A stretch of 33,667 nucleotides of DNA. Origin: Eggerthellaceae bacterium. Its GTDB lineage: Bacteria; Actinomycetota; Coriobacteriia; Coriobacteriales; Eggerthellaceae. The stretch lies in contig JALCHN010000020.1 of the NCBI GenBank assembly GCA_022644775.1, positions 1 to 33,667 of the forward strand. Direction: 5' to 3'. The number at the start of each line of letters is the position of its first letter. The first letter of the stretch is position 1. Shown in pieces: positions 966 to 26,427 of this stretch. The position numbers and the translations under genes were made by a program. The notes under the pieces were generated by a model that did no database searches, was not told the DNA's origin, and saw only the letters and a program-made list of their open reading frames with translations.

Positions 966-1504
966 CACCTCACGTAGAATACTTTGGACTTCGTGAGATC
1001 GCCGGCGATAGGCTGAGCGTTGAGCTCGGCAATGGCCTTCGAGATCTCGCTGTCCGGGTCGTCCAAGTCACCGAAGATGCGCGCACCCGTGGGGCATGCC
1101 TCAACGCAGCTGCACATGGCCGTGCCGTCGTTGGCCGACACCGTGCAGAAGCGGCACTTGTCCACCGTGCCCGTTTCCTCGTTGACCACACGCACCTGGT
1201 AGGGGCAGGCGGCCATGCAGTACTTGCAACCGATGCAGCGGCCCTGGTCGACCTGCACGATGCCGTCGGTGCCGATATGCGCGGCGCCCGTGGGGCACAC
1301 CGCGGCGCACGGGGCGTCCTCGCAATGCATGCATTGCAGGGGAATCGTCTCGACGCTCAACGTGGGATAGGTGCCCGTTTCGCGCTCCTCGAACCGGATG
1401 AACTGCTCGCTGGGCAGCAGGTTGTTCTGACGCTGGCAGGCAGCCACGCAGGTATAGCAGCCCACGCACTTCTTGGTGTTGATGAGCATTCCGTAACGAG
1501 CCAT
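965..1504 (-). CDS. 4Fe-4S electron-transfer subunit (PsrB/DmsB-like)
   Basis: The 179-residue protein has four ferredoxin-type cysteine groups: CVGCYTCVAAC near the N-terminus, CMHCEDAPCAAVCP, CIGCKYCMAACP, and a split C-x2-C/C-x3-C group (KCRFC, then CSCVEACP). This is the usual four-cluster layout of subunits linking a Mo-bisPGD enzyme to an NrfD-type anchor. The ATG at 1504 overlaps the TAA of the catalytic gene by one base; an in-frame ATG ten codons earlier would overlap that gene and is unlikely. There is no signal peptide of its own, so export would depend on the Tat signal of the catalytic partner, as is known for this family. Confidence 0.92.
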   Translation of the reverse strand: MARYGMLINTKKCVGCYTCVAACQRQNNLLPSEQFIRFEERETGTYPTLSVETIPLQCMHCEDAPCAAVCPTGAAHIGTDGIVQVDQGRCIGCKYCMAACPYQVRVVNEETGTVDKCRFCTVSANDGTAMCSCVEACPTGARIFGDLDDPDSEISKAIAELNAQPIAGDLTKSKVFYVR

Positions 1505-3699
1505 TACGCATTCACCTTCTTCACCGTCACGCAAACCTCATGCGCCATGGCCGACCCATACCCGGGCTCGAGCTTGAACGCCAAGAAGTCGGCAGGGCGC
1601 AAACCCACACCGTAGGCGGTATGCTGGTCTTCCACCGTCACGCCGTAGGCGGAAGGCAGATAGAGAGCGCCCGGCACGATGCGGTCGGTCACATGCACGC
1701 CGATCTTTCCGGTGTACTTCTCGTTGGATACCTCGATCGTATCGCCGTCGGCGATACCCAGGTTTTCGGCGAACGAGCGGTTAATCCAAGCGCGCGTGAG
1801 GTCGTATTTCTTCGTGATTCCCATAAGCGTTTCGTTGTTGGCCGTCATCGTATGGCTGTGAATGGGCTGCTTGGCCTCGATAAGGCGCAGCTCATTGCCC
1901 ATGGGCATCACGTCCGGCTCGATCCAGGAAGGAACGGCCTCGTATCCCGCCTTCTTGCAGGCGTCGCTTGCGAACTGAATCTTTCCCGTGGGTGTCTTCC
2001 AGTTTGGCGTCGAACCGTACGAGAAAGCCTTGTCGTTGAAGTAGACCGTGCCCATCTGGCGCGCGGCGTCCACATCAACGCCCACGCTCGCAAGCTGGGC
2101 AGCGGCGAGCTCGTCCATCGTGAAGTCGAAGTACTGACCCACCCCGCATGCCTGCGCGAGTTCGGTGAAAATCTCGTCGACGGGCTTGGTATTGGGATGG
2201 ACCACGTCGATAACCTGCGTGCGCATCGACACGCTCGGCACCGCTCCGCCCGCGAACGCCGGCAGCTCCGACCGTTCCAGATAGCTCGTGTCGGGCAGCA
2301 CGTACTGGCAGGCAGCCGCCGTCTCGCTCATCTGCACGTCGACGCACACCGACAGATCGCACCCCGATACCACCTGGGCCAGGTAGGAGGGGTTCGAATA
2401 ACCCCCTACCATATTGGAGTTGTAGAAGAAGAAGCCCTTCACACTGCCTTCGGAAGCGGCCTTTACCGCCGCAAGGGCCGAACCATCCACCGCAAGAGGG
2501 AACTCGTCGGAACCGACTTGCGCCGCCTGAGGCTTGGGAGGAGAGGGGAACTTGCCCTCATCGAGCTTGCCGGCCGACACGCTCGGGTAGAGCAAGGCGC
2601 CGCCTTTTTGGTTGTAGACCCCCAAAAGCGCGTTGAAGCAGGCCACGGCACGGGCCAGCTCGCCGGAATTCTTGTACTGGCAACCGGAAGGACCGCGCCA
2701 ACCCGACTCGATCGAGCAAGCCGGCGCTGCCTGGGCCATTTGATGGGCCAAGCGCTTGATGGTCGTTTCATCGATGCCGGTCTTTTCGGCGGCCCAACGA
2801 GGCGTGTACTGAGCGATGCTTTCGCGGAACTCGTCGAAGCCCACGCTGTTCGCCGCAACGTAGTCGGCATCGTAGAGGTCTTCGGTGGTCACGACCTGGC
2901 ACAGGGCGAGCACAAGGGCCAAATCGGTGCCCGGAGTGATAGGCACCCATTCGTCGGCGAACTTCTGCGAATTGGTGAAGCGCGGGTCGACAAGGACGAT
3001 ATGGGACCCTGCCTCATGCGCCTTTTCCATCGCCATGAGGGCAGAAGGGCGCAGGCCATCGGCATAGCTGCGGCCGATGAAGATGGTCATCTGGGCGTTG
3101 GCAACGTCGCTTGTCCAACTGTTGGCGCCGATCACCTGCTTGATGCCCGATTCGCGCGACTCGTAGCAAGCCGCACCATGGGTGTAGACGTTCGGCGAGC
3201 CCAGGGCGCTCATGAAGCGCTTCGCATAGTAGGACCCCGACGGGCGCGGGTCCTGCACCATCGCAAGCGCGCCGGGACCGTCGGAAGAGACGATCTGCTG
3301 CACCTTGGCGCCGATTTCCGAAAGAGCCTGTTCCCACGAAATCGCTTCGAACTGGCCTTTGTCGTTTTTCTTGAGCGGGTCGGTCAAGCGGTCCTTCGAA
3401 TAGGCGATTTCCGCGTACGCGTAACCGCGTGCGCACAACTTGCCCTTCGCCATGGGATGCCGCTCATCGCCGATGAGCTTGCGCAGCTTCCCGTCGACCA
3501 CATACGCCGTGAACCCGCATTTGTTCGAGCAGCCGTTGCACGTAGAGTGCACCGTGCTGACGGTACCGTGTGTATCGGAATCGTCAGCGTACGCCCGCTC
3601 CCACGCGTCGAAGCTCATGTAGCCGGCAAGTCCCGCAGCGCCGATGACGCCCGCGGTGCCAGCCAGAAAGCCGCGCCTGGTTATAGCGTTTCCTGACAT
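1504..3699 (-). CDS. Mo-bisPGD oxidoreductase, PsrA/PhsA-type catalytic subunit
   Basis: The 731-residue protein begins with a Tat signal (TRRGFL at residues 7-12, then a hydrophobic stretch). A C-x2-C-x3-C-x27-C motif follows at C54, C57, C61 and C89 for one 4Fe-4S cluster. Cys178, in HGAACYE, sits where polysulfide/thiosulfate reductases have their molybdenum-ligand cysteine. Length and partners (Fe-S subunit, NrfD anchor, TorD chaperone) fit a membrane-bound, outward-facing respiratory reductase of the DMSO-reductase superfamily. The ATG at 3699 is chosen because it has an AGAGGAAA ribosome site and starts right before the Tat motif; an upstream ATG at 3738 lies inside the chaperone gene. 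The substrate is not predictable: sulfur compounds are the family default, but Coriobacteriia have many divergent paralogues acting on organic substrates. Confidence 0.88.
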   Translation of the reverse strand: MSGNAITRRGFLAGTAGVIGAAGLAGYMSFDAWERAYADDSDTHGTVSTVHSTCNGCSNKCGFTAYVVDGKLRKLIGDERHPMAKGKLCARGYAYAEIAYSKDRLTDPLKKNDKGQFEAISWEQALSEIGAKVQQIVSSDGPGALAMVQDPRPSGSYYAKRFMSALGSPNVYTHGAACYESRESGIKQVIGANSWTSDVANAQMTIFIGRSYADGLRPSALMAMEKAHEAGSHIVLVDPRFTNSQKFADEWVPITPGTDLALVLALCQVVTTEDLYDADYVAANSVGFDEFRESIAQYTPRWAAEKTGIDETTIKRLAHQMAQAAPACSIESGWRGPSGCQYKNSGELARAVACFNALLGVYNQKGGALLYPSVSAGKLDEGKFPSPPKPQAAQVGSDEFPLAVDGSALAAVKAASEGSVKGFFFYNSNMVGGYSNPSYLAQVVSGCDLSVCVDVQMSETAAACQYVLPDTSYLERSELPAFAGGAVPSVSMRTQVIDVVHPNTKPVDEIFTELAQACGVGQYFDFTMDELAAAQLASVGVDVDAARQMGTVYFNDKAFSYGSTPNWKTPTGKIQFASDACKKAGYEAVPSWIEPDVMPMGNELRLIEAKQPIHSHTMTANNETLMGITKKYDLTRAWINRSFAENLGIADGDTIEVSNEKYTGKIGVHVTDRIVPGALYLPSAYGVTVEDQHTAYGVGLRPADFLAFKLEPGYGSAMAHEVCVTVKKVNA

Positions 3700-3700
3700 G

Positions 3701-4342
3701 TCATTTCCTCTCGAGGTTGTTCGTTGATACTGCCTCATGCCTGCCCGACCTTATGCATTCGACGAGGGCGACGATGACATCGACGAGCGCGCAGAAGAAC
3801 ATGCGTTCATCGTCGTCGAGCGCCACCAGCGCCAGCCTGAAGTCGGCAAGCCACGTAAAGCGTTCGGATACGAAGGAATCGGCAAGGTTCGCGTCGGACC
3901 GATAGAGCAGAGCGGCCATGCCAGCTTCCACCGCCAAATGGTCGGGCGTGGAAGCGAAGCGGGCGGGCAGCTCGAGCCCCATCGATGAGGCCAAATCCCC
4001 CATATAGCGGGCAGAAGGACCGCCGTATGCAGGAACCTGGGAAGGATTCGTCCGATAAAGCGATTCAACGGGCACGACGCTCTGCGGGAGCCCGCCCGTG
4101 AAATGCCGCGCAGCGAACGAGCGCACCGCCTCGTAATCGAGGGGATGGCGCAGGGCATCGAGTTCCCCGGACGCAAGTAGGTCGGAGAGCACGGCGCATT
4201 CGTCGCGCGCAATCGAACTGCAGGCGTCAAGGTAGCCCGACCAAGTCGAAAACGCCGCCAAAGCGATCCACGCATCGCGCTCGGCAGGAGCAAAGCTCGC
4301 GCGCGCCACTTCGAATACGAGCGCCTTCTTTTCCGCGTCCAT
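3701..4342 (-). CDS. TorD/DmsD-family molybdoenzyme chaperone
   Basis: This 213-residue, mainly helical protein has the TorD-family layout, including a central segment with YRTNPSQVPAYGGPSARYMGDLA. Such cytoplasmic chaperones bind the Tat signal of the apo-catalytic subunit until cofactor is loaded. The gene sits directly upstream of the Tat-bearing catalytic gene; its TGA (3703-3701) is one base from that gene's ATG, and the ribosome site of the next gene lies inside it. Its own ATG follows AGAAGGGAACC. Sequence conservation in this family is low, so the assignment rests on the local motif, length and position together. Confidence 0.82.
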   Translation of the reverse strand: MDAEKKALVFEVARASFAPAERDAWIALAAFSTWSGYLDACSSIARDECAVLSDLLASGELDALRHPLDYEAVRSFAARHFTGGLPQSVVPVESLYRTNPSQVPAYGGPSARYMGDLASSMGLELPARFASTPDHLAVEAGMAALLYRSDANLADSFVSERFTWLADFRLALVALDDDERMFFCALVDVIVALVECIRSGRHEAVSTNNLERK

Positions 4343-4387
4343 GGTTCCCTTCTTCCTTGCCTCTTTCGCAGCCGAACCGTTTCCGAA

Positions 4388-5131
4388 CTAGCTTCCCTGG
4401 TACGGACGCACCAGGTCGCCGGTGAGCTCGGCGGTGTTGATAATGCCCTTGGAAAGCGCCTCTTCGGCGATGTCCTGCCAATCGATGAACTTGATGGCTC
4501 CGTTGGGGCACTGCTCGGCGCAACGGCCGCAGGAAATGCACTTGGTCGAACGGCCGGTCTCGCTGCTCACCACGGGGATGTTCCAGGGGCAGGCCTCGTG
4601 GCACATGCCGCAGCCGATGCAGACGTCGGTGTCGATCACGCGGGCGCCCGTCTTCTCGTCGGAATGGATCGCGTGCACCGGGCAGTACTTGACGCACCAG
4701 GCGTCCTCGCACTGCTTGCAGGCCTTGATGGTGAACTGGCAGTTGCCGTAGATGCCGTCTTCGGTATCGGGGCTCGCGCCGAAGTTGTAGCTTTCCCACA
4801 CGCGCACGCGGGCCGTCTCCTGCGAGACCCAGCCGTCGTTGCGCAGGCTGCACATCATCTCGCAGCGCTGGCAGCCGGAGCAGCGGCCTCGGTCGGTGAC
4901 GATCATCTTCTGCGGGGTGGTGGAAAGGTCGATGCGGCCGGACGCGATCGCGTCTTCGGTCACGCCCCACTTCGCCACCACGCCGCCGACGACCAAGCCG
5001 GCGACGCCGCACCCGCACATGGCGAGCACGTCGCGGCGCGTGAAGTTCTTCTTGGTATTGGTGGAGTCGGCGGCCTTCGGTTTGTCCTCCGTGGCCGTCG
5101 CGGCGTCGTTGTTCAGATTCTGCTCTGACAT
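4388..5131 (-). CDS. Tat-exported four-cluster ferredoxin, YdhY-like
   Basis: The 247-residue protein has a hydrophilic leader, then FTRRDVLAM (residues 30-38) and a hydrophobic segment, a Tat signal. Four cysteine groups follow: C84/87/90/94, C138/141/146/150, C171/174/177/181 and C198/201/204/208. The stretches around SGRIDLSTTPQKMIVT, CSGCQRCEMMC and the final CxxCGxCAxxCPxGAxKxIxW closely match my recollection of E. coli YdhY, the Fe-S protein encoded with the AOR-family enzyme YdhV. It is the first gene of the molybdoenzyme operon (45 bases before the chaperone) and is divergent from the YdhV-like AOR1, so it could serve either enzyme. The start follows a GGAGGAGA ribosome site. Confidence 0.85.
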   Translation of the reverse strand: MSEQNLNNDAATATEDKPKAADSTNTKKNFTRRDVLAMCGCGVAGLVVGGVVAKWGVTEDAIASGRIDLSTTPQKMIVTDRGRCSGCQRCEMMCSLRNDGWVSQETARVRVWESYNFGASPDTEDGIYGNCQFTIKACKQCEDAWCVKYCPVHAIHSDEKTGARVIDTDVCIGCGMCHEACPWNIPVVSSETGRSTKCISCGRCAEQCPNGAIKFIDWQDIAEEALSKGIINTAELTGDLVRPYQGS

Positions 5132-5489
5132 ACGGACTTCTCCTCCTCACTTCCTCCTCTAAAAGCTCCGCTCTCCACGGAACTTTGTTCTTCCAGAAAG
5201 CGCCGTCTGCGGCGCTCCTCCCTCCTCGTTGTCCCTTGGCATTCGGTTCGCACAACGCTTCGCATCATGCGCCCGCGCACATCTCTTCCAGCCCCTCTTT
5301 CGGGGTAATTGCGGCTTTTACCTGCGGTTTTTCGAAATTACCCTGAAAGAGGGTACAGGGGCGGAAGGCCTCGGGCGATACTTGCGGCAAGCAAATCGAG
5401 GCGCCGCGGCATGCGTGCGCCCGATACGCGGCTCCATCGTTTCCCGGTTTCGCACAACAATCGAAAATCGAGGAGATTTGGAGAACAAC
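5132..5489. promoter_or_regulatory. Divergent control region between ferredoxin operon and AOR1
   Basis: This 358-base gap separates the minus-strand ferredoxin operon from plus-strand AOR1. It holds a small 7-bp hairpin (5199-5216), an inverted pair of dyad motifs (5290-5356, listed separately) and the AOR1 ribosome site at 5480-5483. An open frame extends through part of it (from 5229), but it has no ribosome site and is not shared with AOR2, so it is treated as non-coding. I see no confident -35/-10 pair. Confidence 0.6.
5290..5356. promoter_or_regulatory. Inverted pair of putative LuxR-type operators
   Basis: Site 1 (5290-5308, minus strand) reads TTACCC-CGAAAGA-GGGGCT. Site 2 (5338-5356, plus strand) reads TTACCC-TGAAAGA-GGGTAC. 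Together they form an 18-base inverted repeat (5293-5310 against 5336-5353) with one mismatch and a 25-base spacer. Similar dyads stand beside both LuxR genes at 9309 and 13539. Calling them operators is inference. Confidence 0.6.
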
Positions 5490-7607
5490 ATGGCTGATGA
5501 AAAGTCATACGGTTGGGCGGGCAAGATGCTCCGCGTCAACCTGACGACGGGCTCCATCACCACCGAGCCGACCGAGCCCTACAAGGACTACATCGGCGGC
5601 ATGGGCTTGGCCAACAAGATCATGTTCGACGAGGTGCCCGCGGGGACCGACCCGCTGTCGCCCGAGAACAAGATCATCTTCGCCGTGGGCCCGCTCACCG
5701 CATCCGGCGTGCCCCTGGCCGGCCGCACCACGATCTGCAGCCTCTCTACCTTCACTAAGGACCACCTGATCGTCGACGCCCACTGCGGCGGCATGATCGG
5801 CGCCCGCATCAAGCAGGCGGGCTACGACGCCATCATCGTCGAGGGCGCCTCGGACAAGCCGGTCTACCTGAACATCGTAAACGACAAGGTCGAGATCAAG
5901 GACGCCGGGTTCGTGTGGGGCCTGGGCACCCGCGCCACCACCGAGGCCCTCTCGCGCGCGGAGTCGACGAAGGCCTGCGTGGCCGCGATCGGCCCGGCCG
6001 GCGAGAACCTGCTGCCCTACTCCTGCATCATCAACTCGCGCAACCACTCCGCCGGCGCCGGCACGGGCGCGGTCATGGGCTCGAAGAAGCTCAAGGCGCT
6101 CGTCGTCGAGGGCAACCGCCCCGTCTACGTGAAGGACCCGCAGGCCGTGGCCGACCTGTCCGACTACATGCTGCGCGAGGTCATCGGCTCGAACAACAAC
6201 CACGTGGTCCCGAGCACCCAGCAGGAATGGGCCGAGTACTACGACGAGGGCTCTCGTTGGACGGCCAAGAAGGGCCTGAATTGGGAGCTGGCCGAAGACG
6301 GCGCCGTGGAAACCGGCGAGCCCAAGCCCGGCGAGCTCAACACCGTGGGCTACCGTTGCATGAAGTCCACCAAGGACCTGGGTGCCGCCGCCAGCGCCTA
6401 CACCATCAAGATGAACGGCTGCCACGGCTGCCCCATCCACTGCTATAGCGACCTGCGCAACCAGGCATCCGCCGACGCGGGCGCCTACGCCACCGCGGGC
6501 AACACCTGCGCGTCGAACTTCCCCTGGCTCTACACCGAGTCGATCATGAAGACCGGCATCACCCAGAAGGCCATGCCGCAGGAGTTCATCAACTGGAACA
6601 ACGCGATCGGCACGACGATGGACGATTTGGGCATGTGGTGCAACTACGCCCAGCTCTACCGCGACATCGGCCACTGCATCAAGGAAGGCATCTGGCAGCG
6701 CGTCCTGCCGGCCGACGAGTACAACATGTTCGACTGGACCAAGTTCAACAAGGACACCCAGGACCCTTCGGTCTACGTGCAGATCCTGAAGCACATCGCC
6801 CAGAACGACAACGAGATGTCCTACGTCGCCCACGGCCCCTTGGTCTGGTGCGAGCGCTGGAACGACCAGGCCTGGTTCGACACCACGGCGTCCTGCCTGA
6901 TCAACTATCGCGGCTGGCCGGTGCACCACGCGCATGAGTGCTTCGCCCAGGTGGGCCTGCTCTACAACATGGTGTTCAACCGCGACGACATGATCCACTC
7001 CGCCGTGAACTTCCGGGGCTGCGGTTTGCCCTTCGACGTGAAGCAGCAGATCGCCGAAGAGGTCTGGGGCGGCGCCGACGCCATCGACCAGAACAAGAAC
7101 TACACGCCCATGAACGAGCACAAGGCCAACTTCGCCTGGTGGAGCGTCGTCACCGACGTCCTGCACGACAGCCTGACCGTGTGCAACTGGGTGTGGCCGA
7201 TGACCATGAGCCCCACCAAGGCCCGCGACTACCGCGGCGACCTCGATCTGGAAGCCAAGTTCTTCAAGGCCGTCACCGGCGAGGACGTCACGACCGACGA
7301 CCTCTACAAGGCGGGCGAGAAGATCATCACCCTGCAGCGCTGCAACACGATGCGGGGCATGGGCACCGACGACTTCCGCAACGTCCATGACACGGTGACC
7401 AAGTGGCCCTTCACCAAGGACCCCGACATCCAGCCGTTCACTGCGGGCACCGACAAGATGGAAGCCAACGATTGGCAGACCGCTCTGACGATGTTCTACA
7501 AGCGCTTCAGCTGGGACGAGCAGAAGGGCTGCCCGACCGCCGAGTACCTCGACGAGAACGGCATGTCCGACGTCAAGGAAGCCATGCAGGCAGCCGGCCT
7601 GATGTAG
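5490..7607 (+). CDS. AOR-family tungsten/molybdenum oxidoreductase, YdhV-like (AOR1)
   Basis: The 705-residue protein matches the aldehyde:ferredoxin oxidoreductase family throughout. It has a GWAGKMLRVNLTTG start, the cluster motif C311-x2-C314-x3-C318 and a fourth candidate ligand C565 in LTVCNWVWPM. The family uses a bis-pterin W or Mo cofactor and one 4Fe-4S cluster to oxidise aldehydes or reduce carboxylates and related compounds. Segments such as NNNHVVPST, KNYTP and RDYRGDL-LEAKFFKA resemble E. coli YdhV, whose physiological substrate is unknown. The start at 5490 is fixed by GGAGAACAAC before the ATG and by the same start in AOR2. It has no signal peptide. A hairpin terminator follows. 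Substrate is unknown. Confidence 0.9.
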   Translation: MADEKSYGWAGKMLRVNLTTGSITTEPTEPYKDYIGGMGLANKIMFDEVPAGTDPLSPENKIIFAVGPLTASGVPLAGRTTICSLSTFTKDHLIVDAHCGGMIGARIKQAGYDAIIVEGASDKPVYLNIVNDKVEIKDAGFVWGLGTRATTEALSRAESTKACVAAIGPAGENLLPYSCIINSRNHSAGAGTGAVMGSKKLKALVVEGNRPVYVKDPQAVADLSDYMLREVIGSNNNHVVPSTQQEWAEYYDEGSRWTAKKGLNWELAEDGAVETGEPKPGELNTVGYRCMKSTKDLGAAASAYTIKMNGCHGCPIHCYSDLRNQASADAGAYATAGNTCASNFPWLYTESIMKTGITQKAMPQEFINWNNAIGTTMDDLGMWCNYAQLYRDIGHCIKEGIWQRVLPADEYNMFDWTKFNKDTQDPSVYVQILKHIAQNDNEMSYVAHGPLVWCERWNDQAWFDTTASCLINYRGWPVHHAHECFAQVGLLYNMVFNRDDMIHSAVNFRGCGLPFDVKQQIAEEVWGGADAIDQNKNYTPMNEHKANFAWWSVVTDVLHDSLTVCNWVWPMTMSPTKARDYRGDLDLEAKFFKAVTGEDVTTDDLYKAGEKIITLQRCNTMRGMGTDDFRNVHDTVTKWPFTKDPDIQPFTAGTDKMEANDWQTALTMFYKRFSWDEQKGCPTAEYLDENGMSDVKEAMQAAGLM

Positions 7608-7626
7608 GGCCCGCCTCCTTCCTCCG

Positions 7627-7662
7627 AAGTCCCCGACCGCATCCTCGCGGCCGGGGACTTTT
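7627..7662 (+). terminator. Intrinsic terminator of AOR1
   Basis: A stem from AAGTCCCCGACCGC to GCGGCCGGGGACTT (7627-7640 with 7647-7660, one A-C mismatch) has a 6-base loop and ends in TTTT. The terminator after AOR2 is nearly the same. Confidence 0.9.
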
Positions 7663-7681
7663 GCATGTGACGACGTCGCAC

Positions 7682-7739
7682 GTGACAACATCACCTGCCC
7701 CGTTGTCACGGTGACAATAGGGGCAGGTGATGTTGTCAC
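7682..7739. repeat. Inverted pair of palindromic intergenic units
   Basis: Two units (7682-7709 and 7711-7739) face each other between the convergent AOR1 and LuxR1 genes. Both are the CCTGCCCC variant rather than the commoner CGCGCCCC form. A short palindrome, GTGACGACGTCGCAC, precedes them at 7667-7681. The LuxR1 stop codon begins four bases further on. Confidence 0.88.
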
Positions 7740-7743
7740 ACAA

Positions 7744-9258
7744 CTACGATGCATGCTCCTTCAGGTAATCGATAATCTCCTGCCTAGAATGCAGATCAGT
7801 CTTGGTGTAAATGCGTTTCACATATTCATGAACCGTTGCAGGAGAAATGAATAGCTGTTCTCCAACGCGCTTCTGGGTAAACCCAAGCGCGTACAAGGCA
7901 ACGACATCGATTTCCCGATCGCTCAAATTGAACCGCCTGCCAAGTTCCTGGGCATTCTCGCGCATTGCGGCGAATCGCACTTCAAACAAATTGTTCGGCG
8001 ACACCTCAAGACCCATAAGACCCTGCAAAACAACGCGTTTTCCCTCAGGCGAATCGTCAAGGTCAAGCTTGTACGTACGCATAATCATCAGCGTCATTAC
8101 TTGACCGGAAGCAGCTACGAACAGCGCAATAGACACCATCATCAGCTGGATGTTCCCCATAATCCCAAACGTGACCATCTGCAGCATTCGCGTCAACGCA
8201 CGCGGGAGAAAGAAGACAAGCCAACCGCCCAAACAGTAGTAAAACGGGTCGCGCCAACCCGAATCCATAAATGCAAGCATTAGATACTGACCGTATGCGA
8301 CCAAAATCGCATTGAGCACGGTCACGACCATCGCGCCCCATTGCAAGTCGTCAGGGAACGCCGCATACAGCAATAGAGAAAGAAAGGCCATCGCTTCAAC
8401 GGCAATCCAAATCTCAACAGACGACCTTCTTTTCCTGCTGGAGAACCCTCGGAGAATTACGACAACGCATGCAGCAACGCAGAGCAGCATATATCCGATA
8501 CGAGCCGACCTTGAAAACACAATTGAAGAGCCATCGGGAAAACCACGCAACAAGCCCACCACAATTGCCATGAGGCCAAGACCAACCCCCGACACCACGC
8601 TGATGCGCAACAGGGAGCTCCCCTTGCGCATGGAGCCCAGGTATTCATTGCGATTGAGGGCTCTGTCAAGAGTGGGAACGTCTGGTTGCTCCTTCGATTT
8701 CCGCACAAGACCCAGCTGGAACAGAGAAGCACATGCGGCGGCCGCATAACCACCAGCTGGCGAAAGAAACACGCAGGGGAAAATCACCAGCTCGCTGAGA
8801 GCTAGAGCCCCAAAGGTAAACAGTATCGACACTTTCGGCCCCGCAGACCGTATGCGCCATACCCAGCACAACATAGCGAGCGAGCCAGCGGCGCAATTTA
8901 GGGAGCACAGGAGAAATCTAATCTGCTGGCTGCCGATTACCCGTACAGAGCAAACGGAAAGCGACGCAAGCGCACCGCTCTCAACGGAAGCACAGACGCA
9001 CAGCAGAAGGCACACCTCTCGGTCGCTTAGCTGGATATCCCTTTTCGCCACAATGACGATCAGCGCAACCATCGCAGCGCCTGCAACAAGGACTGCACCA
9101 TCGCCGAACAATCCGCCATCGCTGCTCTGATAGCTACCGTAGCCACCAACGATGACGCCCATGCGAGAAAAAGAGAGGCCAACGAGCATGGGCCAGATTG
9201 CCGCTGCATACCGGCCCATTTCCGATAGCGTCGCATTGATTTTCCCCTCTTCGGACAC
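7744..9258 (-). CDS. LuxR-type regulator with multi-helix membrane domain (LuxR1)
   Basis: This 504-residue protein has about ten to twelve hydrophobic segments in its first ~400 residues. A C-terminal LuxR/FixJ helix-turn-helix follows (LSDREIDVVALYALGFTQ, then ISPATVHEYVKRIYTKT). Such membrane-LuxR fusions are abundant in Eggerthellaceae, commonly beside one respiratory oxidoreductase each. A GTG start at 9258 is chosen because GAGAGGGG lies just before it and the length then resembles LuxR2; an ATG at 9402 would give a non-homologous leader. It is divergent from AOR2, its likely target. Its codon use is visibly AT-richer than the neighbours, suggesting recent acquisition. The ligand is unknown. 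Confidence 0.85.
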   Translation of the reverse strand: MSEEGKINATLSEMGRYAAAIWPMLVGLSFSRMGVIVGGYGSYQSSDGGLFGDGAVLVAGAAMVALIVIVAKRDIQLSDREVCLLLCVCASVESGALASLSVCSVRVIGSQQIRFLLCSLNCAAGSLAMLCWVWRIRSAGPKVSILFTFGALALSELVIFPCVFLSPAGGYAAAACASLFQLGLVRKSKEQPDVPTLDRALNRNEYLGSMRKGSSLLRISVVSGVGLGLMAIVVGLLRGFPDGSSIVFSRSARIGYMLLCVAACVVVILRGFSSRKRRSSVEIWIAVEAMAFLSLLLYAAFPDDLQWGAMVVTVLNAILVAYGQYLMLAFMDSGWRDPFYYCLGGWLVFFLPRALTRMLQMVTFGIMGNIQLMMVSIALFVAASGQVMTLMIMRTYKLDLDDSPEGKRVVLQGLMGLEVSPNNLFEVRFAAMRENAQELGRRFNLSDREIDVVALYALGFTQKRVGEQLFISPATVHEYVKRIYTKTDLHSRQEIIDYLKEHAS

Positions 9259-9308
9259 AGATACCCCTCTCGCCCGCGTAAATCCTAATACAGCAGGGGA
9301 AACGGCGT

Positions 9309-9329
9309 GTCCCCTCTTTGAGGGGGCAA
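9309..9329 (-). promoter_or_regulatory. Putative operator between LuxR1 and AOR2
   Basis: On the minus strand this reads TTGCCC, nine bases ending in CAAAGA, then GGGGAC. It is a two-base-longer version of the dyads at 5290, 5338 and 13539. A possible LuxR1 -10 box (TATTAG, plus 9285-9290) would put this site over the -35 region. A related half-site pair, ACCCTGAAA and AAAGAGGTGAC, lies at about 9347-9375 nearer AOR2. Function is inferred from position and recurrence. Confidence 0.5.
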
Positions 9330-9475
9330 CCAATCTTGCCGGGTCCCACCCTGAAAATTGTCTTAAAGAGGTGACAGAAAATCCAGAGCATCGTGCCACC
9401 ATAGAATCAATCCCTGTTCCCTTGGTTCACGTCTTCGCACAACGGGTATCTAACGCAGCGAACAAGGAGAACAAC

Positions 9476-11581
9476 ATGGCTGATGAAAAGTCATACGGTT
9501 GGGCGGGCAAGATGCTCCGCGTCAACCTGACGACGGGCTCCATCACCACCGAGCCGACCGAGCCCTACAAGGACTACATCGGCGGCATGGGCTTGGCCAA
9601 CAAGATCATGTTCGACGAGGTGCCCGCGGGGACCGACCCGCTGTCGCCCGAGAACAAGATCATCTTCGCCGTGGGCCCGCTCACCGCATCCGGCGTGCCC
9701 CTGGCCGGCCGCACCACGATCTGCAGCCTCTCTACCTTCACTAAGGACCACCTGATCGTCGACGCCCACTGCGGCGGCATGATCGGCGCCCGCATCAAGC
9801 AGGCGGGCTACGACGCCATCATCGTCGAGGGCGCCTCGGACAAGCCGGTCTACCTGAACATCGTAAACGACAAGGTCGAGATCAAGGACGCCGGGTTCGT
9901 GTGGGGCCTGGGCACCCGCGCCACCACCGAGGCCCTCTCGCGCGCGGAGTCGACGAAGGCCTGCGTGGCCGCGATCGGCCCGGCCGGCGAGAACCTGCTG
10001 CCCTACTCCTGCATCATCAACTCGCGCAACCACTCCGCCGGCGCCGGCACGGGCGCGGTCATGGGCTCGAAGAAGCTCAAGGCGCTCGTCGTCGAGGGCA
10101 ACCGCCCCGTCTACGTGAAGGACCCGCAGGCCGTGGCCGACCTGTCCGACTACATGCTGCGCGAGGTCATCGGCTCGAACAACAACCACGTGGTCCCGAG
10201 CACCCAGCAGGAATGGGCCGAGTACTACGACGAGGGCTCTCGTTGGAATGCGCAGAAGGGTCTAAATTGGGAGCTCGCGGAAGGTGGCCCTGTAGAAACC
10301 GGCGAGCCCAAGCCCGGCGAGCTCAACACCGTAGGCTACCGCTGCCTGCTGAGCGTCCATAAAATGATGCTAGGCTCAGCCGCGGAGCCGTATGTCATCA
10401 AAACGAATGGCTGCCACGGCTGCCCCATCCACTGCTATGCCGACCTGCGCATGCAGTCATCCGCCGATGCTGGTAGTTTCGAGACGAGCGGCAACACTTG
10501 TATGGCGAATGCGGGATTCACATTCATGAACATGATTCTAAAATGGAACGTAGATAAAGATGCAGAACTGCTCATGAATGCAGTCCTAACAAATACAATG
10601 GACGACCTCGGATTCTGGTGCAATTACGGGCAGTTTTACCGCGACTTCGCTCATTGCTATAAAGAAGGCATCTTCCAGCGCGTCCTGCCTGCTGACGAAT
10701 ACGGCTCCATTGACTGGGACAAATTCACCTCTCTCGACCCCTCGTTCTTCATCGACGTCTGCAACAAAATCGTGCGCAACGACTCTGAGCTTTCCTATAT
10801 CGCCCACGGCCCCTTGGTCTGGTGCGAGCGCTGGAACGACCAGGCCTGGTTCGACACCACGGCGTCCTGCCTGATCAACTACCGCGGCTGGCCGGTGCAC
10901 CACGCGCATGAATGCTTTGGGCAAGTCGGAGCTCTCTACAACATGGTCTTTAACCGCGATCCAATGGTCCACTCCGCCGTGAACTTCCAGGGCTGCGGTT
11001 TGCCGATAGACGTAAAAAAGGCCATAGGCGCTGAAGTATGGGGAGGCGAAGACGCTGTCGACCCGGTAAAAGATTACACGCCGATGAACGAGCACAAGGC
11101 CAACTTCGCCTGGTGGAGCGCCGTCACCGACGTCCTTCACGACAGCCTGACCGTGTGCAACTGGGTGTGGCCGATGACCATGAGCCCCACCAAGGCGCGC
11201 GACTACCGCGGCGATTTGGACCTGGAAGCCAAGTTCTTCAAGGCCGTCACCGGCGAGGACGTCACGACCGACGACCTCTACAAGGCGGGCGAGAAGATCA
11301 TGACACTGCAGCGCTGCAACACGATGCGCGGCATGGGCACCGACGACTTCCGCAACGTGCATGACACCATCACGTCATGGCCATTCAACGAGGACCCCGA
11401 TAAACAACCGTTCACCAAAGGCACGAAAAAGCTTGAGAGGAATGATTGGAACTCCGCGTTGACAATGTTCTACAAGCGCTTCAGCTGGGACGAGCAGAAG
11501 GGCTGCCCGACCGCCGAGTACCTCGACGAGAACGGCATGTCCGACGTCAAGGAAGCCATGCAGGCAGCCGGCCTGATGTAG
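9476..11581 (+). CDS. AOR-family oxidoreductase, mosaic paralogue (AOR2)
   Basis: The 701-residue protein has the same family architecture as AOR1: CHGCPIHC cluster motif near residue 311 and the LTVCNWVWPM cysteine. The first 257 residues are identical to AOR1, and the DNA matches from the ribosome site through 10247 with no difference I can see. The middle (10248 to about 10800) and three shorter blocks diverge, with AT-richer codons, for example in 10540-10600. The last ~40 codons and the terminator again match AOR1. The divergent stretches include much of the region after the cluster motif, so substrate specificity may differ. It is transcribed divergently from LuxR1. Start by GGAGAACAAC and identity with AOR1. 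Confidence 0.9.
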   Translation: MADEKSYGWAGKMLRVNLTTGSITTEPTEPYKDYIGGMGLANKIMFDEVPAGTDPLSPENKIIFAVGPLTASGVPLAGRTTICSLSTFTKDHLIVDAHCGGMIGARIKQAGYDAIIVEGASDKPVYLNIVNDKVEIKDAGFVWGLGTRATTEALSRAESTKACVAAIGPAGENLLPYSCIINSRNHSAGAGTGAVMGSKKLKALVVEGNRPVYVKDPQAVADLSDYMLREVIGSNNNHVVPSTQQEWAEYYDEGSRWNAQKGLNWELAEGGPVETGEPKPGELNTVGYRCLLSVHKMMLGSAAEPYVIKTNGCHGCPIHCYADLRMQSSADAGSFETSGNTCMANAGFTFMNMILKWNVDKDAELLMNAVLTNTMDDLGFWCNYGQFYRDFAHCYKEGIFQRVLPADEYGSIDWDKFTSLDPSFFIDVCNKIVRNDSELSYIAHGPLVWCERWNDQAWFDTTASCLINYRGWPVHHAHECFGQVGALYNMVFNRDPMVHSAVNFQGCGLPIDVKKAIGAEVWGGEDAVDPVKDYTPMNEHKANFAWWSAVTDVLHDSLTVCNWVWPMTMSPTKARDYRGDLDLEAKFFKAVTGEDVTTDDLYKAGEKIMTLQRCNTMRGMGTDDFRNVHDTITSWPFNEDPDKQPFTKGTKKLERNDWNSALTMFYKRFSWDEQKGCPTAEYLDENGMSDVKEAMQAAGLM

Positions 11582-11600
11582 GGCCAGCCTCCTTCCTCCG

Positions 11601-11636
11601 AAGCCCCCGACCGCATCCTCGCGGCCGGGGGCTTTT
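11601..11636 (+). terminator. Intrinsic terminator of AOR2
   Basis: The stem AAGCCCCCGACCGC with GCGGCCGGGGGCTT (one A-C mismatch) has loop ATCCTC and ends in TTTT. It is almost identical to the AOR1 terminator; its T-to-C change in one arm is matched by an A-to-G change in the other, so pairing is kept. Confidence 0.9.
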
Positions 11637-11640
11637 CTGT

Positions 11641-11809
11641 GTGACAACAGGGGCGCGTGATGTTGTCACACGGCGGGGCTCGTTTCACAGGGAAATGTCA
11701 CGCCGAACCCGGAAATCCTGCTGGGCGGGTGACAACGGGGGCGCGTGATGTTGTCACGCCCAGCGGTGACAACATCACGCGCCCCCGTTGTCACCCGCCC
11801 CGTTGTCAC
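11641..11809. repeat. Cluster of palindromic intergenic units
   Basis: Three full units lie here: 11641-11669 and 11729-11757 in one orientation and 11766-11794 in the other. A truncated right end follows at about 11796-11809. They fill the gap between the convergent AOR2 and LuxR2 genes; the LuxR2 stop codon begins at the next base but one. Confidence 0.88.
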
Positions 11810-11810
11810 G

Positions 11811-13364
11811 CTATTCCGAATACTGGGCCACGAAATCGAGGATGGCCTGGCGGGAATGCAGGCCCGTCTTCGCATAGATGCGCTTAATGTGGGCGTGCAC
11901 GGTTTCGGGCGATATGACGAGCTCTTCTGCCACCTTGCGCTGCGTGTGGCCCATCGCGTAGAGGGTGAGTACTTCGATCTCGCGGTCGGAAAGCAGAAAG
12001 CGCTCGCCGAGCTTGCGCACGTTGGCTTCCATGGCTTCGGTGCGCAGTTCCTCGAGCGATTGCGGTTTCTTTTCGGCTTCGATGCCCATCACGGCGTGCA
12101 GCACGCGCGACTGACGCTGGGCGAGCACGCGATCGCGCTCGTCCAGCAGCACGCCCACGTAGGCTCCCGTGAGCACGAGAACCGACGCGAACGAAAGAAT
12201 CGAAATGAGCACGAGCATGCGCGGCTCATCGACGCCCCAGGCGGCAAGCAGGGGCTCGCTGATACGCGCCACCGCACGGAAGAACAGGAAGACGACTATG
12301 CCGCCGAGCAGGTAATAGTAGGGGTCGCGCCAGCCGAAGCTCATGAACGCCACGATGAGCGCCCAATCGAACACGACCATGAAGGCGTTGAGGGCCGTGG
12401 TGGCCGCGGCGCCCGCGTCCAGGCGGTCGGGCAGGAAGGCGTACAGGAAGAGCACGACCGTGACGGTGAGCAGCATGACGCCCCACATGGCCAGGGCGAA
12501 GGGAAAGCGCCAGGTGCGGCCCGCCACCGCGACGATAACAATCGCGCACACCGCGACGATCGCCACGAAACAGACGACGCGCATCTCGAGCGAGAAGGGG
12601 ATGGCGAGGCCCGCCGGGAACCCGCGCATAAGGCCGATGGCAAGCGAGAGCGCCGCGATGCACAGGCCGTTGCTGATGAGGAAGCGGGCGATCGAGATGC
12701 GGTCCTTGGACACGTTTTCCAGCAGCTGAGGGCCGCCCGTGTCGATCTCCCAGGCAAGAGGCGCGCGGCGGGCCCGGCGCATAAGGGGGAACTCCGCGAG
12801 CAGCAGAACCGCCGCGGCCACGTTGTCCCACATGCCCGAAAGGAAGGCGCAGGCCAAAAGCTCGACCTCGCTTAAGGCCAAAGCCGAAAACAGCACGACA
12901 GTCACCACGCGCAAGCGGGCCCCGCGCACATAGCGCAACCAGTAGCCGAAGATGATCACGCCAAACAAGGTGTTGACGCCGTTAATGCACAGACGCGCCC
13001 ACACGGGGCCCGAGGCGAGTTGGACGAAACCGGCAACGAGCATAAGGGCGCACTGAGCCGCAACCGTTCCGATCATGATTCGCCGCACCTGCTTCTTTTC
13101 CAGGTGCAAGTCGGGGATGGCGATGACGCAGATGATGATCAACGCAAGCAGAGAAAAGAACAGGGTCGCCCCATCGGTGAAGATGCCGTCGTCGCTGCTC
13201 ACATAGCTCGCGTAGGTGGGCACGATAATCGAGCACCGCCCCACTGCAAGGCCCACAATCACCGGCCACAGCGCCGACGTCGCCTTAAGGCACGCCTTGA
13301 CCTGCGCCCATCCAGTGGATGCCTCACATGCGTCGAGGACAGAGCTCGAGCTCGATTCCGTCAT
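11811..13364 (-). CDS. LuxR-type regulator with multi-helix membrane domain (LuxR2)
   Basis: This 517-residue protein has roughly ten to twelve hydrophobic helices over residues 25-420 and a C-terminal LuxR helix-turn-helix (LSDREIEVLTLYAMGHTQ, then ISPETVHAHIKRIYAKTGLHSRQ). It resembles LuxR1 in architecture and in short motifs such as MRGFPxG and GWRDPxYY, but its GC-rich codon use matches the resident genes. The ATG at 13364 follows GGAGGGG. It is divergent from the acidic protein at 13607 and convergent with AOR2. By analogy with neighbouring-regulator logic, it may control the 13607 gene, AOR1, or both. The sensed signal is unknown. Confidence 0.87.
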   Translation of the reverse strand: MTESSSSSVLDACEASTGWAQVKACLKATSALWPVIVGLAVGRCSIIVPTYASYVSSDDGIFTDGATLFFSLLALIIICVIAIPDLHLEKKQVRRIMIGTVAAQCALMLVAGFVQLASGPVWARLCINGVNTLFGVIIFGYWLRYVRGARLRVVTVVLFSALALSEVELLACAFLSGMWDNVAAAVLLLAEFPLMRRARRAPLAWEIDTGGPQLLENVSKDRISIARFLISNGLCIAALSLAIGLMRGFPAGLAIPFSLEMRVVCFVAIVAVCAIVIVAVAGRTWRFPFALAMWGVMLLTVTVVLFLYAFLPDRLDAGAAATTALNAFMVVFDWALIVAFMSFGWRDPYYYLLGGIVVFLFFRAVARISEPLLAAWGVDEPRMLVLISILSFASVLVLTGAYVGVLLDERDRVLAQRQSRVLHAVMGIEAEKKPQSLEELRTEAMEANVRKLGERFLLSDREIEVLTLYAMGHTQRKVAEELVISPETVHAHIKRIYAKTGLHSRQAILDFVAQYSE

Positions 13365-13606: not shown

Positions 13607-14563
13607 ATGAACGATTCGGAAGACCAAGAACCGGCAACCGAGCAGGCGGCGCCCGCGTCCAGCACGCCCCGTCATGCCCCGGCCGACGCGGCGCCCGAAA
13701 ACCCGGCGGGCGCGCCCCGCGAAACCGCCGAAGAGCCCGCAGCGCAGCCCGCCCTCGAAGAGGTCGAGGAGGCGCTTGCGAATGCGTTCGCCGACGTGCG
13801 CACCCAGAGCGCCGACAGCGCGCTCGTGACCCCCGACCGCTGGGAGACCGAGCAGATAGCGCCCGCCGGCATGGACCCCGCCGCCTTCGCCCAGCTCGTC
13901 TTCGACGTGATCGACGCCAACGCCGCGCAGGCGGCCGACGAGCAAGACGAGACGGCCGAAGCCAGCGCCGAAGCCGAAGCCAATGCGGCAGCCGCCTTCG
14001 GCGGGTCCGTGGAAAGCGGCACGGCCGAAACCCTCGCGAACGCCATTCCGGAAAAGCGCGCGACCGATGCCAACGCGCAGACGGAAGCGAACGCCGATGC
14101 GGACGGCGAAGGCGAAGAGGCCCCGTCCCTTCACGACCAGGTGCTCGCCGTCCTGGCCGCCGGCGCCTTCGCCCTGCCCACGGCCGATATCGCGGTGCTC
14201 GAAGGCACCAAGAACCGCTACCTCTATTCCACCGACTTCATGACCGACTCGTTCGCCCACTGGACCTACCTGGCCCTCGAGGACGACAAGGTCGCGACCT
14301 TCGTCGACATCGTCCGCGAGGAAAGCCGCGTGTACCCGCGGCCCATGGTCTACCGCGCCCTGCTCAACGACCCCTTCCGCATGACCGAAGACCAAGTGCT
14401 CGACTGCTGGAAGACCGTGCAGGAAAGCGAGAAGTTCCCCGACATCGCGTCGTGCAGCGCGAGCAACGGCGACGCCTACTTCTATTCCTCCGACTACCTG
14501 AGCGAGGCGCAGGCCAAGGCGCTCGCCGAATACTATTCGGTCGAACGCTGGATGAACCCCTAG
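13607..14563 (+). CDS. Acidic two-part protein of unknown function
   Basis: The 318-residue protein starts after GGAGGACGT. Residues 1 to about 180 are low-complexity, rich in Ala and Glu and strongly acidic, probably disordered. Residues about 182-318 look like a compact domain with many aromatics, including YLYSTDFMTDSFAHWTYLAL and AYFYSSDYLSEAQAKALAEYY. There is no signal peptide or membrane segment. I do not recognise the family. Because the region carries YdhV- and YdhY-like genes, one candidate is a counterpart of the small uncharacterised YdhW/YdhT proteins of that E. coli operon, but I could not confirm this from memory. It shares the putative operator class with AOR1 and is followed by a hairpin terminator. 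Confidence 0.75.
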   Translation: MNDSEDQEPATEQAAPASSTPRHAPADAAPENPAGAPRETAEEPAAQPALEEVEEALANAFADVRTQSADSALVTPDRWETEQIAPAGMDPAAFAQLVFDVIDANAAQAADEQDETAEASAEAEANAAAAFGGSVESGTAETLANAIPEKRATDANAQTEANADADGEGEEAPSLHDQVLAVLAAGAFALPTADIAVLEGTKNRYLYSTDFMTDSFAHWTYLALEDDKVATFVDIVREESRVYPRPMVYRALLNDPFRMTEDQVLDCWKTVQESEKFPDIASCSASNGDAYFYSSDYLSEAQAKALAEYYSVERWMNP

Positions 14564-14615
14564 GCGGGCACGCGGCCCAGAACCCTCTGCCGGGCCGCAC
14601 CCGCATCGCCCTTTT
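14564..14615 (+). terminator. Hairpin terminator after the acidic protein gene
   Basis: GCGGG and GCGGCCC (14564-14578) pair with GGGCCGC and CCCGC (14592-14604), starting right at the stop codon. TTTT follows at 14612. The short gap between stem and T-run makes efficiency uncertain. Confidence 0.6.
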
Positions 14616-14639
14616 CGAACACGCCATTTGGAGGCCCTC

Positions 14640-15230
14640 ATGCAAAACGAAGTGCGCAACGTCTACATGGACATCCCCGACCGCCGCGTGATCCGCACGG
14701 CCGACGTCTACCAGACGCAGACCGAAATCGGCACGCGCGGCTATTCCGACAAGTTGCTGTCGATCGTTGCCGATTTCAAGAACAGCGGCATTCCCGAAGG
14801 CTGCAACGCCGAGGGCATGGCCGGCAAATCGAAGCGCGGCGAAGTCGCCTGCCAACTGTTCGCCGTGATCGACCCCGACACGCGGGTAATCGAGCATATC
14901 GGCTTCCGCAGCCGCGGCTGCCTTGCCATGACCGGCTGCGCGAGCGAGATCTGCGTGCTCGCCTGCGGAAAAACGATCGACGAGGCCCTGAAGCTCACGC
15001 CTGCCGACGTGGTGCGCGCCGTCGACGGCGTCCCAGCCGACAAGAACGACACGCCCGTGTTCGCGGTGGAAGCCCTGCGCGCGGCCATCGGCGACTTCCT
15101 GCTCGCCCGCGGCGGGCTCGAGGAAGCAGACCGCGTGGTCGCCTGCGACCAGGATTCGCTCGACTGCCTGCTCTGCGAGCACTGCAGCCTGCGCGACCTG
15201 CGCATCCAGTGGCTCGTCGACCACCGCTAG
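14640..15230 (+). CDS. IscU/NifU-like iron-sulfur scaffold protein, divergent
   Basis: The 196-residue protein has an IscU/NifU-N-like core. It contains GCNAEGMAGKSKRGEVACQLF and the conserved-looking GFRSRGCLAMTGCASEICVLACGKTIDEAL, corresponding to the FxGxGCxxS...GK segment of scaffolds. The C-terminal part ends in CLLCEHCSLRD, a cysteine-rich extension. Such scaffolds assemble Fe-S clusters and hand them to apo-proteins in the cytoplasm. The usual ligand spacing is altered, so a specialised or degenerate role is possible. The ATG at 14640 follows GGAGG. No desulfurase gene is adjacent; the nearest is at 27653. Its place beside Fe-S-rich oxidoreductases is suggestive only. Confidence 0.65.
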   Translation: MQNEVRNVYMDIPDRRVIRTADVYQTQTEIGTRGYSDKLLSIVADFKNSGIPEGCNAEGMAGKSKRGEVACQLFAVIDPDTRVIEHIGFRSRGCLAMTGCASEICVLACGKTIDEALKLTPADVVRAVDGVPADKNDTPVFAVEALRAAIGDFLLARGGLEEADRVVACDQDSLDCLLCEHCSLRDLRIQWLVDHR

Positions 15231-15531
15231 GCTGCCCTTCCCCTTGCCGCCCCGGTGCGGGCGCGCGGCCCCTCCCCGCGCGCCCGCACCGGGGCGGCGC
15301 GCGTTGGCGGGCTGCGCTTTCCTTGCCTTATGGAGATCGGAGCGGTCGAGGAAAGGCGCGCGTTCGCAGCCGCGCTTTTCAACACAACGCGAGGTCGTGG
15401 CCAACCTTGCACGCGTCCGTTAAAGAATTCGTATCAATTCGCCCACAGGTCCCACCGCCGTAAACGAGACGGGTAAGATGGGTGCTTACTTCAGACTGGC
15501 GGTTCAGCCCTTTCGACGAGTAGGCGGTGTG
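15231..15531. other. Intergenic region with a perfect 23-bp hairpin
   Basis: Bases 15246-15268 pair perfectly with 15276-15298 around a 7-base loop, 15 bases after the scaffold stop codon. No T-run follows, so it is not a textbook intrinsic terminator but may stop transcription or protect the transcript. The rest (15300-15531) is the leader of the zinc-ribbon gene; I see no convincing promoter in it. Confidence 0.7.
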
Positions 15532-16554
15532 ATGACTCCCAATTTCTGCATAAACTGCGGTGAAGCCCTGAAACCGGGTGCCCATTTCTGCTCGAATTGC
15601 GGAGCCCCGATCGAAGAGAACCCGATCTCCGCGGCGGCCGCCGTCGCAGCGCCCCAGCAGGCCGCCGCAGGCGCGTCGAGCGTCGCCGCAGCCGACGCCG
15701 ACTTCAGCGACGTGCCGGTCGAAGACGTCCTCATCGACGGCGCCATGCCCGAAGAGGCCACCGCGCCCATCATGGACGTGCCCTTCATCTCGCCGCGCCC
15801 CCGATCGCTGAACATCCCCACGATCAGCCCGAGCGCCGCCGCTTTCGCCCGCCCCGACATGGAGCACGTGGTCGCCGATGCGCCGGCCCCGCAGAACGCC
15901 GAAGGCGCCCTGGCCAGCCAGGCCACCCAGATGCTCAACTGGTCGACCGACGTGAGCGCCGACGAAACGCGCGTGCTCCACTTCAACACGCCCCTCACCG
16001 ACAACGAGCCGGTCGTTACCGAATCGGCCGACAAGGACCTGTCGGGCTTCGACGTGCCGGCCACGCCCTTCTTCGACGACGACAATTACCTCATCCCCGG
16101 CAACGGCTACGGCCCCAAAGTGGCCGACGCCGCGTCGAGCGCCCAGGGCTTCGGCAGCGCGACCGACGAATGGGCCGCCGAACGCCCCGAAGGCTGGACG
16201 TCGGGCCTCAACCCGCAACGCACGTCGGTCATGACCACCCCGGTGACCAACATGAACCAGCGCGGCGACACCGACATCATGTCGCCGATCACCGACGAAG
16301 CGCGCGAAGCCGCCGGCGTGTTCGGCGCCCCGCAGATCTATTCGGCCCAGAACACCACGAGCCGCCGCTGGTCGGCCGGCAAGATCGCGCTCGTCGTCGC
16401 CGCTATCCTGTGCGCGTTCGCGATCATCTACTACGTGCAGTTCAACCCCTACTGGTTCGAGAACCTGCAGTCGGCCATCCGCGACTGGGGCGCCGAACAA
16501 GGGCAGAACCTCCTGGGGCAGATCGTGCAGCAGCTCAACCAGCTGGGCAAGTAG
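15532..16554 (+). CDS. Zinc-ribbon protein with one C-terminal membrane helix
   Basis: This 340-residue protein begins MTPNFCINCGEALKPGAHFCSNCG, a double CxxC zinc ribbon. A long Ala/Pro-rich, acidic linker follows. One membrane segment (about residues 286-305, KIALVVAAILCAFAIIYYV) leads into a short tail with WFENLQSAIRDWG. The arrangement predicts a single-pass protein with a cytoplasmic zinc ribbon. Many actinobacterial proteins share this plan without known function. The ATG at 15532 is chosen because it directly precedes the ribbon and follows AGGCGGTGTG; an upstream in-frame ATG at 15478 is possible. It stands alone between hairpins. Confidence 0.75.
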   Translation: MTPNFCINCGEALKPGAHFCSNCGAPIEENPISAAAAVAAPQQAAAGASSVAAADADFSDVPVEDVLIDGAMPEEATAPIMDVPFISPRPRSLNIPTISPSAAAFARPDMEHVVADAPAPQNAEGALASQATQMLNWSTDVSADETRVLHFNTPLTDNEPVVTESADKDLSGFDVPATPFFDDDNYLIPGNGYGPKVADAASSAQGFGSATDEWAAERPEGWTSGLNPQRTSVMTTPVTNMNQRGDTDIMSPITDEAREAAGVFGAPQIYSAQNTTSRRWSAGKIALVVAAILCAFAIIYYVQFNPYWFENLQSAIRDWGAEQGQNLLGQIVQQLNQLGK

Positions 16555-25142: not shown

Positions 25143-25169
25143 CGCTCATCCTTTCTCGACAAGGTGACT

Positions 25170-25317
25170 GTGACAACGGGGCAGGTGACAACAGGGGCGC
25201 GTGATGTCGTCACACGCCATGGTGACAACAGGGGCGCGTGATGTCGTCACACGCCATGGTGACAACAGGGGCGCGCGATGTTGTCACATGGACAACGGGG
25301 GCGCGTGACGTTGTCGC
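25170..25317. repeat. Tandem array of palindromic units, 37-base period
   Basis: Full units stand at 25185-25213, 25222-25250 and 25259-25287, separated by an identical 8-base spacer ACGCCATG. A truncated unit precedes (25170-25184) and a degenerate one follows (25289-25317). All point the same way. They fill the gap between trpP and ecfA1. The first two have GTCGTCAC instead of GTTGTCAC at one end. Confidence 0.88.
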
Positions 25318-26409: not shown

Positions 26410-26427
26410 GTTAAATCTATGTTTCGT

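Follow-up and report, generated by a model that had tools for sequence, protein, structure and literature searches.

The genome of an Eggerthellaceae gut bacterium (GenBank GCA_022644775.1) carries two AOR-family genes, for metal-dependent oxidoreductases, in tandem, and the second of them, AOR2, is a mosaic of tracts matching the first, AOR1, and of diverged, AT-richer blocks. Synonymous sites and comparison with a sister species indicate that the matching tracts were copied from AOR1 into AOR2 by gene conversion. We consider it very probable that a second, diverged AOR-LuxR unit came to stand beside the resident genes and that its AOR then received tracts from AOR1; we infer that this unit was imported and that the two AORs share their partner subunits.

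The AOR locus

The host genome comprises 1.96 Mb in 56 contigs, and the window, that is, the whole stretch of DNA analyzed here, is contig 20 (JALCHN010000020.1; 33,667 nucleotides). One same-genus genome, that of Hugonella massiliensis, served as the sister-species outgroup. The features of the locus are as follows.

84-5131, minus strand: partner genes of the Class V WOR locus (~87% nucleotide identity, syntenic in H. massiliensis), listed singly in the next five lines
84-968, minus strand: NrfD-like membrane subunit
965-1534, minus strand: FeS protein
1504-3738, minus strand: molybdopterin oxidoreductase
3701-4342, minus strand: TorD-like chaperone
4388-5131, minus strand: WorS, YdhY-like FeS small subunit
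5490-7607, plus strand: AOR1, AOR-family large subunit (WorL, YdhV-like, Class V WOR), 705 amino acids; conversion donor
7608-7743, no strand: AOR1 terminator and palindromic repeat element
7744-9402, minus strand: LuxR-A, LuxR-type regulator (Pfam GerE) with a long hydrophobic N-terminal part; GC3, 0.586
9476-11581, plus strand: AOR2, mosaic AOR-family large subunit, 701 amino acids; conversion recipient
11582-11810, no strand: AOR2 terminator (stem as in H. massiliensis) and palindromic repeat elements
11811-13364, minus strand: LuxR-B, resident AOR-linked LuxR-type regulator; GC3, 0.840

AOR1 and AOR2 are the only such genes detected in the host genome (n=2). Both contain the Pfam AFOR_N and AFOR_C domains, they score 1052 and 1048 bits, respectively, against NCBIfam NF007354 (YdhV type; cutoff, 868), and their proteins are 86% identical. 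The gene order is AOR1, LuxR-A, AOR2, LuxR-B. A YdhY-like FeS protein and an NrfD-like protein are encoded near AOR1. Class V (clade 41) tungsten- or molybdenum-containing oxidoreductases, in which WorL equals YdhV, are found in Coriobacteria and have no assigned activity (PMC13328260). The locus resembles them in that WorL-type AOR1 and AOR2 are accompanied by WorS of the YdhY-like kind, by a membrane subunit, and by a further pyranopterin subunit; it differs in pairing a tandem WorL, one copy of which is a mosaic, with one partner set, an arrangement unmentioned in the section of that paper on the class. The host genome holds no close second YdhY-like gene (the next best is 41% identical over part of its length), so both large subunits would have to share WorS.

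The two LuxR proteins bear their GerE helix-turn-helix at the C terminus (residues 492-546 and 458-510). In Eggerthella and relatives, transmembrane LuxR regulators mediate substrate-responsive activation of neighboring metabolic genes, according to PMC9734109. The regulators with 10 to 12 transmembrane segments in that paper share with LuxR-A and LuxR-B (517 to 552 amino acids) the C-terminal helix-turn-helix, the long hydrophobic N-terminal part, and the adjoining metabolic enzyme gene; for the AORs, such regulation is putative. Each AOR may be controlled by one of the two LuxR genes.

Mosaic structure of AOR2

The initial annotation had described AOR2 as alternating between AOR1-identical and divergent blocks, with 9466-10247 matching 5480-6261 without a visible difference and with AT-richer codons in the divergent blocks. 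Direct alignment confirmed that the mosaic is real in the assembled sequence: the match is an exact 782-bp repeat, the proposed block borders were correct to within ~10 bases, and GC3 is 0.535 over AOR2 positions 10248-10810, compared with 0.950 in AOR1. The blocks, all on the plus strand, are as follows.

9466-10247: converted tract 1, equal to 5480-6261 (782 bp, exact), from the ribosome site GGAGAACAAC to codon 257
10248-10799: divergent AOR2 core, GC3 about 0.54
10295-10332 (38 bases) and 10409-10438 (30 bases, with the CxxCxxxC cluster motif): identical islands within the divergent core
10800-10911: converted tract 2, with a single difference
10912-11083: divergent block, synonymous codon difference of 0.40 over codons 478-540
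11084-11358: converted tracts 3, which are patchy, span codons about 540-628, and include the DSLTVC motif
11359-11464: divergent block, synonymous codon difference of 0.41 over codons 628-668
11465-11585: converted 3' tract, 121 bp identical to 7491-7611

The alignment contains further exact repeats of 82 bp (6826-6907 and 10800-10881), 59 bp (7164-7222 and 11138-11196), and 80 bp (7248-7327 and 11222-11301), and between the exact repeats identity drops to 33 to 85% per 60 columns.

We scored synonymous differences at codons encoding the same residue in AOR1 and AOR2, with 10,000 shuffles. Across codons 2-256, none of 246 comparable codons differs synonymously, while the longest run reached in any shuffle was 79. 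The five longest remaining runs of synonymous identity span 33, 26, 23, 16, and 15 codons (each P ≤ 0.0044 in the shuffles), and in the divergent blocks a fraction of 0.37 to 0.41 of comparable codons differ synonymously. Identity is higher in the tracts than in the rest of the AOR pair with synonymous sites included. A Fisher test of site patterns inside versus outside the runs is circular, since the runs are defined by AOR1 equaling AOR2, and was left out.

Might purifying selection on the protein, together with codon choice, have kept these blocks alike with no conversion at all, the divergent blocks being simply the variable parts? Such an account would draw on the coincidence of divergent blocks 331-372 and 401-445 with the family's least conserved parts and on a GC3 near 0.95, which reduces synonymous variation. 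However, over the codons of tract 1, where AOR1 and AOR2 show no synonymous difference, AOR1 and the H. massiliensis AOR show 29 of 243, and AORs of other genera share identical runs of just 18 to 32 bases at most with AOR1. We give this account virtually no chance of being correct. As judged from synonymous sites, neither chance nor protein constraint explains the mosaic, and gene conversion between a resident and a divergent paralogue, as first suggested by the alternation of blocks, is well supported by these synonymously frozen tracts; a direction can now be added to it.

Direction and age of the conversion

The only AOR of H. massiliensis is flanked on the left as AOR1 is and on the right by the LuxR-B orthologue; a block pattern fixed between two orthologous genes of related species, which would have counted against recent conversion, is not seen. 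AOR1 is 97% identical in amino acid sequence to this syntenic AOR, and identity to it stays level along the gene, at about 95% both within the tracts and beyond them, as expected of a donor left unchanged by nonreciprocal transfer. Within the tracts, the two paralogues are closer to each other than AOR1 is to its sister-species orthologue: in tract 1, AOR2 shares 35 of the 35 differences from H. massiliensis that are private to AOR1, and Met699 (AOR1 numbering), in the 3' tract, occurs only in AOR1 and AOR2, at a position where H. massiliensis and 99% of the family have Leu. Over the divergent blocks, AOR2 is as far from AOR1 as from the H. massiliensis AOR. Trees follow the same division; AOR2 groups with AOR1 in the N-terminal tree, and it lies on a long branch outside the group of AOR1, H. 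massiliensis, G047, G052, and L040 in the core tree.

Since AOR2 carries AOR1-private changes and AOR1 is flat against H. massiliensis, the donor is AOR1, and the comparison with this outgroup shows the direction of conversion to be AOR1 to AOR2. At least the tracts sharing AOR1-private changes were, by the same token, copied after the split from H. massiliensis. Set against each other, the two synonymous counts over tract 1 give the N-terminal copy an age of no more than about one-tenth that of the species split, if the zero count is assigned an upper bound of 3 and assembly is assumed to have smoothed away no small differences.

A parallel in Parvibacter caecicola

The two AORs of Parvibacter caecicola DSM 22242 (L059), at 8001-10136 and 14125-16260, lie ~6 kb apart and flank a LuxR gene. 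Synonymous codon differences in this pair fall from 41% over codons 1-540 to 5% over codons 545-630, and a conversion tract at codons about 553-640 includes an identical run of 44 codons (P < 0.0005) and 146 identical bases. Set against the L062 orthologue, these two genes suggest that the downstream AOR was the donor. In the two other AOR pairs checked, no mosaic signal was found (L062/L082, P = 0.24; L035/L084, P = 0.93). Judged by these codons, conversion between AOR paralogues is not unique to the window, and the same C-terminal block has been hit twice, independently; as the best conserved in the family, this block offers recombination an easy start.

Origin of the AOR2 core and LuxR-A

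Against the AOR2 core, the nearest AORs reach about 60 to 64% identity and come from several genera; no close relative of the core protein was found in 398 genomes of the class, the best match outside itself reaching 56 to 57%. For LuxR-A DNA, a search of 397 genomes of the order returned only short stretches (65 to 93% identity); the best protein matches outside the host genome, at 37 to 39%, are AOR-linked regulators. Searches for a donor of the AT-rich parts returned no match on plasmids and none in viral contigs. LuxR-B, in comparison, is 63% identical in amino acid sequence to the regulator adjoining the single AOR of H. massiliensis. LuxR-A has no counterpart in H. massiliensis, and comparison of the two genomes shows the whole AOR2-LuxR-A unit to be absent there. 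The position of LuxR-A in the LuxR tree corresponds to that of the AOR2 core in the AOR tree, and in the best trees both lie outside Hugonella plus three other genera. Because the remainder of AOR2 and LuxR-A are both GC3 poor and have no close relatives, these data suggest that they are one imported AOR-LuxR unit.

The word "acquired" in the initial annotation is thus borne out in part: base composition and the foreign-looking LuxR-A speak for it, but a sister relationship of AOR2 to the Hugonella AOR was not rejected by an AU test (P = 0.30), and an old duplication keeps some probability. Under such a history, AOR2 and LuxR-A would have arisen by duplication within the lineage, been lost in H. 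massiliensis, and been kept and later partly converted here; this competes with the import step alone and leaves conversion unaffected. That trees put AOR2 and LuxR-A near the same clade agrees with it as the AU result does, but it would have to accommodate a GC3 of 0.54 to 0.59 inside a locus of 0.84 to 0.95, the lack of the unit in the other sampled Hugonella, and best trees that place both genes outside Hugonella and three further genera. We regard it as having some weight while being unlikely.

The same final sequence could also result from the reverse order of events, in which a complete duplicate of AOR1 took up, by recombination, patches from a foreign AOR gene to become AOR2, since AOR1-like ends around a foreign core would look alike in either case. 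However, LuxR-A and the 63-base intergenic stretch between LuxR-A and the AOR2 ribosome site are also AT rich, unlike the flank of AOR1. With AT-rich DNA continuous up to tract 1, a foreign gene overwritten by AOR1 fits better than a patched AOR1 copy, and we find the reversed history improbable.

Our preferred reading is of an imported unit with later conversion. The unit of AOR2 and LuxR-A would have been placed, as a second and diverged one, between resident AOR1 and resident LuxR-B, probably in one piece from an AT-richer relative within the Eggerthellaceae. Entry may have been by a single crossover between a circular molecule carrying an AOR and LuxR-A and the resident AOR, for which the order AOR1, LuxR-A, AOR2, LuxR-B is as expected. 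Once the species had parted from H. massiliensis, homologous recombination that left the flanks unexchanged copied AOR1 tracts into AOR2, replacing the N-terminal third with its ribosome site, internal stretches, and the 3' end, and leaving the unconverted remainder with its own AT-richer sequence. Both AORs would yield working large subunits that draw on one shared partner set, each with its own LuxR regulator.

Terminators and palindromic repeats

A single compensating base pair distinguishes the terminator stem of AOR1 (7625-7662) from that of AOR2 (11599-11636): GTCCCC..GGGGAC in the former, GCCCCC..GGGGGC in the latter. The H. massiliensis stem has the AOR2 form, and the AOR1 terminator bears the compensating change, a weak hint that the resident 3' end now stands behind AOR2.

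A palindromic element of ~37 bases around GGGGCGCGTGATGTTGTCAC occurs in 137 copies in the host genome (≤2 mismatches) and 2 in H. massiliensis. In the window it is intergenic, as inverted pairs or tandem units (7682-7739, 11657-11785, 25140-25289, 26420-26495, and 30213-30288), and stands in both convergent AOR-LuxR gaps. From these copy numbers, it looks like a recent, species-specific, REP-like expansion. Each Hugonella genome has one RAYT-like Y1_Tnp gene (G000:C10:20051-20377, L137; G001:C5:53197-53526, L136). As the source of the palindrome this candidate was set aside, there being no copy of the element within 3.3 kb around the host's gene.

Assembly of the locus

The sampled contigs of the host genome begin within the 137-copy palindrome, and the assembly therefore appears to be short read. 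The main caveat is that an exact repeat of 782 bases is longer than typical reads and inserts, so that the placing of the two cores rests on the reads. Bubble merging by the assembler could have erased minor differences, and "exactly" identical may mean "very nearly" identical. The 82-, 80-, and 59-base tracts are readable by single reads, and for the 121-base tract, 150-base reads or pairs can suffice. If the 121-base repeat is correctly phased, the linear order is forced; if it was left unspanned, the cores of AOR1 and AOR2 could each stand in the other's place, which would pair each core with its own LuxR. Either outcome leaves the mosaic and the conversion standing.

A more radical possibility is that the shared tracts are products of repeat resolution or strain mixing and one or both mosaics are chimeric joins, as might be suspected of contigs that start in a short palindromic repeat and yet cross a 782-base exact repeat. 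Against this, chimerism at long shared repeats needs those repeats to exist in two contexts; tracts of 59 to 82 bases, within the size of a single read, place AOR1-private bases in unique AOR2 sequence; and with the 121-base repeat phased, the linear order with both copies is the sole path. We hold an artifact of this kind to be highly improbable.

Function of the mosaic protein

AOR2 retains the CxxCxxxC and DSLTVC motifs. The 4Fe-4S ligands of the former (C311/C314/C318 in AOR1 and C313/C316/C320 in AOR2) are invariant in 72 family rows, and the DDLG motif is conserved though it lies within a divergent block. An AlphaFold model of AOR2 (pLDDT, 82; pTM, 0.87) aligns with AOR/BamB structures, including 4z3w, 9mqx, and 1aor, at Z scores of 29 to 35 over 552 to 575 residues, and a complete AOR fold is thus predicted for the mosaic. 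AOR2 deviates from the family at the near-invariant residues K292L, D296K, T305V, M308T, and P345G (AOR1 numbering), departures that could reflect altered specificity or relaxed constraint.

The initial annotation had further proposed that conversion keeps cofactor and cluster parts common while the substrate region differs, and this the data only suggest. CxxCxxxC lies in an identical island and DSLTVC within 11084-11358, in agreement with it; on the other side, DDLG falls in a divergent block, and the most divergent blocks (331-372 and 401-445) are the family's most variable parts. Selection may have held the cofactor and cluster parts alike, or recombination may simply have taken place where homology was high. 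A broader generalization would have the tandem WorL pairs of Eggerthellaceae undergo recurrent conversion of cofactor- and partner-binding parts from resident genes into imported cores, such that partners are shared while substrates and LuxR sensors differ. We offer it as speculation and think it doubtful.

Relation to known systems and significance

Partial conversion between bacterial tandem paralogues is already known. PMC9484751 describes recombination between copies of the tandem immunity-gene paralogues esaG and tipC in Firmicutes, which are like the AOR pair in being tandem, nonidentical paralogues with shared blocks and homologous recombination; the AOR pair differs in encoding large metalloenzyme subunits and consisting of two copies, one of them GC3 poor and probably imported. 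Similarly, gene conversion between RF1 and RF2 in bacteria, as portrayed in PMC4530459, involves a single domain of old, essential paralogues. There too a stretch of common function was converted, the specificity part was left apart, and two independent lineages were affected, whereas here the tracts are several, probably recent, and in accessory enzymes. A search of open-access titles and abstracts found no report of this AOR locus. Since partial paralogue conversion is documented in these sources, we present the locus as a clean new case rather than a new phenomenon.

As an example it is a clear one, with tract borders, direction, and a sister-species outgroup all in hand. Partly converted paralogues of this kind can mislead trees and orthologue calls: over its first 257 residues AOR2 equals AOR1, and its core makes it an outgroup. 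If the modular reading is true, the block boundaries would map the parts of the Class V WOR large subunit that fit its partners versus those that set specificity, in an enzyme whose function is unassigned (PMC13328260).
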